A DNA stretch of 13,766 nucleotides, from positions 1 through 13,766 of the forward strand of contig JABIDL010000008.1 in NCBI GenBank assembly GCA_018651745.1, in the 5' to 3' direction. The notes under the pieces were generated by a model that saw nothing but the letters and a program-made list of their open reading frames with translations, did no database searches and was not told the origin of the DNA. Shown piece by piece: positions 9,847 to 11,978 of this stretch. Position numbers and translations under genes: made by a program. The stretch comes from Candidatus Neomarinimicrobiota bacterium (GTDB lineage: Bacteria; Fidelibacterota; Marinisomatia; Marinisomatales; TCS55). Positions within the stretch are counted from its first letter, which is position 1; every line of letters begins with the position of its first letter.

Positions 9847-10653
9847 ATGATAGATGAACTAGAAGATCCCGGGCAATTGCCTCTATTCCCTGAACTCTCG
9901 ACCGGACAAAATATCCCGTCTTTGGCAACACTTCCGGAATTTGGGAAAGCGCTACAAAACCTAATTCGCATGAGCGACCTCGGAGCCTTCATCGAACTTA
10001 ACATACAGGGTGTTGATAAATTGTACACCATAAACCTTCATGATCTTGACATCCCAAAAGATTTTTTAAAAAATATGACCAACTATTCCCCTCTTACTGT
10101 CAAACTATTTTCCAATGACATCAGAAACGAAATTCATAAACTGACTTATGACATTAAATCCTTCTTCAATTCAAAAAACTCTTTTAAAACATCGTTTGGC
10201 TTTTTCCTGTTCCGCACTCATTTTGATGCTTGGAAAAACACCCTGGCGGAACGACAAGAATCACTTCAATCATATTTAGCCAACACATTGGGCAAAGGGA
10301 AATACGGTCATAATTGTGTAGACTTTTTTAGACTGGGATACGAACATATTGAGTCTTATTCAGATATTACCGCACCATGGGAATTTAAAAAACGCCCACT
10401 ACTAAAAGATATTGAATCAGCACGTAAAATACTGCACGAAAACCAACAAACTTTATTTACACTCAAACAAACAGAAATTGAATTTCCCTTTAATGTTATC
10501 ACACTGAAAACAGGACGCGTCCCGCTCGTACTCCACCAATTTCAATCTCAGGTACATGTACATTCTATTTTTAAAACGATTCATATGGAATACCTTGCCG
10601 ATACCGCAATCGAATCTCTGGATGATATTCGTCAGCTTACAGAAAGTATGTGA
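9847..10653 (+). CDS. uncharacterised 268-residue protein with an N-terminal QLPLF motif
   Basis: I do not recognise a family. There is no signal peptide or membrane segment, so it should be cytosolic. The N-terminus is acidic (MIDELEDPG) and then reads QLPLFPE; Q10-L-P-L-F14 resembles the QLxLF pentapeptide by which many bacterial replication and repair proteins bind the DNA polymerase sliding clamp. The rest is mixed alpha/beta in character with several lysine- and aromatic-rich stretches (around 85-125 and 150-165), including FGFFLFRTHFDAW (117-129), and ends in LTESM. There is one cysteine (about 157). It stands alone: divergent from korA, with a 20 bp dyad in front, and followed by a non-genic stretch before selD. 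Coding is likely because the frame is long, antisense frames are short, and the ATG sits after the dyad. A role in DNA replication or repair is only a suggestion from the motif. Confidence 0.7.
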   Translation: MIDELEDPGQLPLFPELSTGQNIPSLATLPEFGKALQNLIRMSDLGAFIELNIQGVDKLYTINLHDLDIPKDFLKNMTNYSPLTVKLFSNDIRNEIHKLTYDIKSFFNSKNSFKTSFGFFLFRTHFDAWKNTLAERQESLQSYLANTLGKGKYGHNCVDFFRLGYEHIESYSDITAPWEFKKRPLLKDIESARKILHENQQTLFTLKQTEIEFPFNVITLKTGRVPLVLHQFQSQVHVHSIFKTIHMEYLADTAIESLDDIRQLTESM

Positions 10654-10931: not shown

Positions 10932-11978
10932 ATGGATATGAATCAAAAACTAACAACACTTTCACACGGTTCTGGCTGAGCGTGCAAGATAGGTCCTGGT
11001 GACCTCGCTCAGGTTCTGGGCGATCTTGTATTAGAAACAGATGATCGTGTAGTTGTCGGCTTTGATGGCGCCGATGATGCCGCCGTGGTGCGCCTGGATA
11101 ACGGACGCCTTCTGGTGCAAACGCTGGATTTTTTTACGCCTATCGTAGATGATCCATATGATTTTGGGCAGATCTCTGCTGCAAATGCCCTTTCCGATAT
11201 TTATGCGATGGGCGGAACCCCTTTGTACGCATTAAACATTGTTGGATTTCCTATTCATGATCTTCCAAAAGAAACACTTACAACCATTCTGCAAGGTGGT
11301 GCAGATAAAGCAAAAGAAGCAGGAATTCCTGTCGTTGGCGGACATTCTGTGGATGACAAAGAACCGAAATATGGCATGGTGGTTACAGGAGAAGTATCTG
11401 AGAAAAACCTTGTGCGGAATTCCACCGCCCGCCCCGGAGATGCGTTAATGCTCACTAAACCGCTTGGTACCGGCATCATTGCGACCGCAATCAAAAAAAA
11501 CAAAGCATCGGATGAAATCATTTCCGCAGCAACAATTTCCATGGCAACATTAAATAAAGCCGGAGCGGATGCAATGAAACAAGTCAATGTTCATTCTGCC
11601 ACAGATGTTACTGGTTTTGGATTGTTAGGGCATTTATTCGAAATGTGCAAAGCTAGTGGAGTTTCGGCAGAAGTGAATTTTAGTGCATTGGAATTTCTTC
11701 CTGGCGTCCGGGATTTAGCAGAAGCGAACATCATACCGGGTGGAACCCAGCGAAACCTGGATTATGTAAAAGATTCCGTAGCGTTTGATTCTGCATTAAC
11801 TGAAACCGATCGGATGATGGTAGCCGATGCCCAAACTTCAGGCGGGTTATTGGTAGCCCTCCCCAAAAATGATGCACAAGATTTTATCAACGCATTTGAT
11901 TCAGAATATTTTTACAAGCCAATTCAGATTGGTGAAATATCCAATCAAAACAGTTCAGTTATTACATTAAACAACTAA
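10932..11978 (+). CDS. selD: selenide, water dikinase, predicted selenoprotein (Sec at residue 16)
   Basis: Makes selenophosphate from selenide and ATP, the selenium donor for selenocysteyl-tRNA and 2-selenouridine. A plain ORF search starts only at 11085, but the frame extends upstream to ATG 10932 through one in-frame TGA at 10977-10979. The read-through sequence is TTLSHGSG-U-ACKIGPGDL, where U16 replaces the catalytic cysteine (C17 in E. coli) and K19 is the essential lysine. Conserved parts continue: GADDAAV (46-52), LDFFTPIVDDPYDFG (65-79), SAANALSDIYAMGG (82-95), GGHSVDD (136-142) and TDVTGFGLLGH (224-234). Read-through length is 348 residues, against 347 in E. coli. The alternative start at ATG 10938 would remove two residues. 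The gene converges on rsmA with a 19 bp gap. SelA, SelB and tRNA-Sec are not in the window. Confidence 0.93.
10977..11011 (+). promoter_or_regulatory. bacterial SECIS-like hairpin for the selD UGA
   Basis: The hairpin begins at the UGA itself. UGAGCG (10977-10982) pairs perfectly with CGCUCA (11006-11011), and above a one-sided bulge (10983-10990) AGGUC (10991-10995) pairs perfectly with GACCU (11001-11005). The apical loop is CUGGU. The loop lies about 16 bases after the UGA and contains adjacent G and U, as expected for a SelB-bound bacterial SECIS. Both stems fall within conserved coding sequence, as bacterial SECIS elements do. Confidence 0.75.

Follow-up and report, generated by a model that had tools for sequence, protein, structure and literature searches.

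We found that the selenide, water dikinase gene (selD) in a 13,766-nt contig stretch of Candidatus Neomarinimicrobiota bacterium (the whole stretch of DNA analysed, hereafter the window) almost certainly reads an in-frame TGA at position 10977 as selenocysteine (Sec), so that its product would be a Sec-containing SelD. Translation of the gene with TGA as Sec gives MDMNQKLTTLSHGSGUACKIGPGDL..., with a single in-frame TGA; two ATG codons are both possible as its start (Table 1), and the upstream frame is open to 10869. The read-through product matched the NCBIfam selD model TIGR00476 over residues 6-314 with 407.9 bits (cut-off 125), the Pfam domains AIRS and AIRS_C, and Escherichia coli SelD (PDB 3u0o) over residues 5-336 (E=9e-81), with homology that begins at residue 5 or 6, crosses the TGA and extends to the C-terminus. 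Residue 16 (U16) aligned with the catalytic Cys of 3u0o and with the Cys of Aquifex SelD (2yye), and U16-A-C-K19 was aligned to C-G-C-K of the E. coli enzyme, showing the catalytic Cys or Sec followed by a lysine by which SelD membership is judged. Within the active-site run SHGSG-U-A-C-K, the Sec is followed by Cys C18 and Lys K19, the latter corresponding to the lysine known to be essential in the E. coli enzyme. These TIGR00476 and 3u0o alignments bear out the initial annotation, in which the TGA coincided with the catalytic Cys, SelD homology continued to either side and the lysine was retained. It had also predicted that the first 51 residues and the active site would be lost without read-through, and this is what a table 11 reading gives, the first start 3′ of the TGA being GTG 11085 (297 aa), while an ATG-only gene call would lose more than 51 residues. 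Automatic annotation removes these 51 residues and the active site from selD, and does the same for its relatives in the phylum. Upstream of selD lies a 268-aa ORF (window 9847-10653, plus strand) with no Pfam match, and an Rfam scan of the window gave one match only, a tRNA at 222-295.

Table 1. Features of selD in the window and of the Sec pathway and other TGA-containing genes in the source genome (C numbers denote contigs; unprefixed positions are those of the window).
Feature	Location	Strand	Details
selD, predicted complete CDS read through TGA	10932..11978	+	348 aa; start ATG 10932, alternative start ATG 10938; stop TAA 11976-11978
Predicted Sec codon TGA, residue 16	10977..10979	+	Aligned to catalytic Cys of E. 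coli SelD; TGA kept in 39/39 covering family matches
K19 codon (U-A-C-K)	10986..10988	+	Conserved lysine
Truncated ORF expected from standard gene call	11085..11978	+	297 aa, table 11 reading
Hairpin 1, GGUC(C)...GACC	10992..11004	+	3′ of UGA, 5′ of hairpin 2; restricted codon choice
Hairpin 2, GCUCAG-GUU-CUGGGC	11007..11021	+	Best SECIS candidate for SelB binding; covariation in 43 sequences
selC, tRNA-Sec	C33:17551-17641		68.7 bits, over gathering score; ARAGORN tRNA-SeC, anticodon tca (UCA)
selA	C40:67558-68889		502 bits, cut-off 268
selB	C40:68914-70749		Directly after selA; 355 bits, cut-off 242
BCP-type peroxiredoxin, TPGU	C43:24228	-	Pfam domain spans TGA
BCP-type peroxiredoxin, second, TPGU	C10:15909	-	
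ArsC-type arsenate reductase, NPRUSKS	C22:99571	-	Pfam domain spans TGA
LVIVD/AhpC-TSA protein, UPVC	C43:29519	+	Pfam domain spans TGA
Omp28-related selenoprotein, UPYC	C20:28652	-	NF045500, 394.7 bits, cut-off 200
UshA-like protein, CGU	C20:63663	-	NF041198, 217.5 bits, below cut-off 275
Multihaem cytochrome with GGGGGUGG	C16:28523-29926, TGA 29728	-	L263; copies L264-L268
52-aa membrane peptide, GVPTU	C11:7637-7792, TGA 7705	-	L269; homologues L270-L292

Downstream of the UGA, the candidate SECIS element, hairpin 2, has an apical loop GUU that begins 33 nt after the UGA on a stem of 6-7 bp, and with a flanking C-G pair its minimum free energy (MFE) is -8.2 kcal/mol (fold z -3.75). It agrees in every respect with the published bacterial SECIS model, which has a loop of 3-9 nt starting with G and then G or U, a stem of 4-16 bp, a distance of 16-37 nt from the UGA and an MFE of at most -7.5 kcal/mol (PMC13188914). 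We aligned 43 Sec-SelD genes, in which pair counts refer to related sequences and not to independent events, and found the six pairs of hairpin 2 (columns 31-36/40-45) formed in 98.8% of cells, with changes on both sides at four of the six. For the two-helix structure as a whole, both sides had changed in 25 cells of this alignment, and covariation was 0.220 compared with 0.104 for shuffled alignments (0 of 500 shuffles as high). Nearly all of this covariation sits in hairpin 2, where it was destroyed by sliding the partner strand, and RNAalifold recovered the hairpin 2 helix unprompted. Against a control in which each codon was redrawn from the codons used for its amino acid in its own column (300 draws), the Sec-SelD genes formed 5.47 of 6 hairpin 2 pairs compared with 4.96 (maximum 5.21), whereas the same columns in 51 Cys-SelD genes formed 3.45, equal to their own codon control. 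The loop reads GUN in 44 of 47 Sec-SelD genes. Hairpin 1 is distinguished by codon choice: among Sec-SelD genes, GGT is used in 39/41 cases versus 385/1354 elsewhere in the same genes, and GAC in 38/42 versus 257/1081 (p ~1e-18), with no such bias in the 51 Cys-SelD genes. Both hairpins form when 67 nt are folded, joined in a three-way junction, and it is possible that hairpin 1 is part of the SECIS or of such a junction with hairpin 2.

It is unlikely, though worth weighing, that the protein contains Sec and that SelB nevertheless binds hairpin 1 or a UGA-containing lower stem in place of hairpin 2. Hairpin 1 is 16-17 nt downstream of the UGA, has the strong codon bias just described, and is well paired (5 or 6 of 6 positions) in the five of 47 Sec-SelD genes in which hairpin 2 is absent (L080, L081, L126, L132 and L148), so the assignment of the SECIS to hairpin 2 is not universal; its loop in the window, however, is CUGGU, without the G in the first two places found in the PMC13188914 model, whereas a G-U loop and almost all of the covariation belong to hairpin 2. 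The lower stem uses the UGA itself and is favored by MFE, to the exclusion of hairpin 2, when the first 47 nt are folded (z only -0.6), but its pairing was no better than in shuffles and it was dropped as a SECIS candidate. With hairpin 2 retained as the probable element in the window, the five genes that have hairpin 1 and lack hairpin 2 suggest that the hairpin bound by SelB may have shifted by about 15 nt from one lineage to another.

Focusing on the TGA itself, we detected a SelD match in 38 of the 40 genomes in the GTDB family of the source, and all 39 matches covering residue 16, from 37 genomes, have exactly one TGA; the sole family copy without it lies on a contig edge and starts only at residue 71. 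Such conservation, with homology running across the TGA, excludes chance. Across 245 surveyed genomes of the phylum, SelD matches of approximately 350 aa from the source's own order and class nearly all had the TGA, and the matches in the survey without TGA were nearly all cut at a contig end or located in frames of 736-762 aa. TGA-bearing relatives included another Neomarinimicrobiota SelD (L069, 86% identity) and SelD of Poribacteria, Acidimicrobiia, Gemmatimonadetes and Nitrospirae MAGs, and relatives share the N-terminal segment SHGSGUACKIGP that contains the TGA. Relatives with Cys at this position occur elsewhere, mostly in Firmicutes, and the Firmicutes examined have Cys. In the comparison with Sec- and Cys-type SelD that the initial annotation had proposed, U16 stood on the Cys of 3u0o and the TGA was kept in Sec-type relatives.

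Given this pattern, it is very improbable that the TGA is a true stop, with selD decaying or a shorter SelD made from GTG 11085: the 297-aa downstream frame is open, but the short form would be devoid of the catalytic residue and Lys19, the segment preceding and following the TGA is kept in relatives, and selection acts on the RNA signal. Harder still to credit is an error for TGC or TGT in an ordinary Cys-SelD, which the initial annotation had named as a finding that would overturn it; the assembly is a draft of 43 contigs, yet the TGA recurs in 37 separately assembled family genomes and in most SelD copies of the order and class, and is thus not a read error, and the SECIS-type codon constraint 3′ of it is absent from Cys-SelD genes.

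A few genomes showed other arrangements. G022 and G031 each had two TGA-bearing SelD copies, and G111 and G112 each had one TGA-bearing copy and one TGA-less copy in a frame of approximately 740 aa; all four are possibly mixed bins. Judged from their length, the TGA-less 736-762-aa frames, which occur in classes of the phylum other than that of the source and as an additional copy in two genomes, resemble Ndh-SelD, a Cys-type (CxxC) fusion described previously (PMC2398784, PMC4561486). This fusion shares the SelD domain, whereas the protein encoded in the window is a single-domain SelD with a predicted Sec. Within the same order, the small genomes listed for genus g16 of family f9 (0.4-1.0 Mb) had no SelD match, which suggests that selenium use was lost as the genomes became smaller.

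Sec-containing SelD (Sec-SelD, or SPS2) occurs in Haemophilus influenzae and many bacteria. The selD gene studied here is of this well-known kind, and for SelD our result is what the literature would predict: it belongs to the same family, its predicted Sec occupies the only position known for Sec, in the N-terminal loop, its coding sequence contains a bacterial SECIS, and we saw no mechanistic difference. The details particular to this lineage are the Neomarinimicrobiota host, the hairpin 33 nt downstream and a second conserved hairpin between it and the UGA. Cys-SelD, such as the E. coli enzyme (3u0o), has the same domains and the neighbouring lysine, with its Cys beneath U16, but encodes that residue as TGC or TGT and showed no downstream codon constraint in the 51 genes examined. 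As the initial annotation had held, Sec-SelD is established in other bacteria; 19% of prokaryotic SelD contain Sec, invariably at this one position (PMC4561486), and SelD ranks as the second most widespread prokaryotic selenoprotein (PMC13188914).

The source genome (1,863,596 bases, or 1.86 Mb; a draft of 43 contigs, 95.8% complete) contains selA, selB and tRNA-Sec (Table 1), the full set that the initial annotation had expected and whose absence it had said would count against it. The features of a bacterial selenoprotein gene are thereby all present for selD, namely a UGA at the catalytic Cys, two-sided homology, selA/selB/selC and a SECIS hairpin, and the proposal that SelD is itself a selenoprotein is supported by the conservation of the TGA, the three pathway genes and the co-varying hairpin. 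From the sequence, its conservation, the pathway and the RNA signal, we infer both Sec insertion and a catalytic role for Sec16. Reassignment of TGA to a different amino acid, for example Trp or Gly, is scarcely conceivable, since TGA is the stop of 397 out of 1309 long ORFs, tRNA-Sec, selA and selB are present, and the in-frame TGAs, though found in several genes, sit at catalytic Cys positions (SelD, peroxiredoxin, ArsC, thioredoxin-fold). In the proposed mechanism, SelB carrying Sec-tRNA-Sec would bind the hairpin at 11007-11021 and decode UGA 10977 as Sec; Sec16, through its selenol, and Lys19 would take part in selenophosphate synthesis from selenide and ATP; and the selenophosphate would feed SelA and thus the cell's selenoproteins. 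SelD would be among these, making its own supply dependent on selenium in a positive feedback. No match to the selenouridine synthase MnmH scored over the cut-off in this 96% complete genome, and Sec synthesis is therefore probably the only use of SelD in it. Selenocysteine use is thus predicted for a widespread, mostly uncultured marine phylum, and our literature search for Marinimicrobia together with selenocysteine returned nothing on the subject.

We screened all TGA codons of the genome by coding model and homology, with BLAST restricted to coding-like ORFs, and compared TGAs with those of a near relative, G010, of which approximately 0.27 Mb was covered. As the initial annotation had anticipated in calling for such a search, at least eight likely selenoprotein genes were found besides selD, most of them in described selenoprotein families or published tables (Table 1). 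The UshA-like protein has one TGA in 30 out of 30 of its closest family copies. In the multihaem cytochrome, which has no good NCBIfam match, the TGA falls in a glycine-rich linker (GGGGGUGGS) and is kept in five of six family copies; the linker varies around it (GSTUGDAG in L267), and L268 has lost the TGA. The literature already includes a family of cytochrome c selenoproteins, to which this cytochrome may belong. One further TGA in a UxxC-like context (C33:13997) was judged from its coordinates to lie in a shadow frame inside another ORF.

Following up selD in this way also led to a probable new family of small membrane selenoproteins. The 52-aa peptide on C11 has one predicted membrane helix followed by PKMGVPTUHNPFP, and its family, about 50 aa in length, shares the motif PK-x-G-[VI]-PT-U. 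Each of the 24 homologues in the phylum has exactly one TGA, with PTU in 23 and VLTU in one, and no Cys form was found in the 244 genomes searched. Several members compared with NCBIfam and Pfam gave no match apart from one spurious NCBIfam hit (nanA), and we saw no entry bearing this motif in the 2026 selenoprotein inventory. It is likely, overall, that the Sec pathway of this lineage serves at least one family outside the published inventory, represented by this peptide, and that its SelD SECIS comprises two conserved hairpins, with some other lineages seeming to rely on only the hairpin nearer to the UGA. In nearly all of the peptide genes, a hairpin with a G[G/U] loop lies approximately 16-20 nt after the TGA. 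On C11, the peptide gene stands in a row with same-strand genes encoding a rhodanese, a DUF6132-like protein, a DUF302 protein and an FmdB zinc ribbon, and the peptide may therefore act as a membrane-anchored relay for sulfur or selenium.
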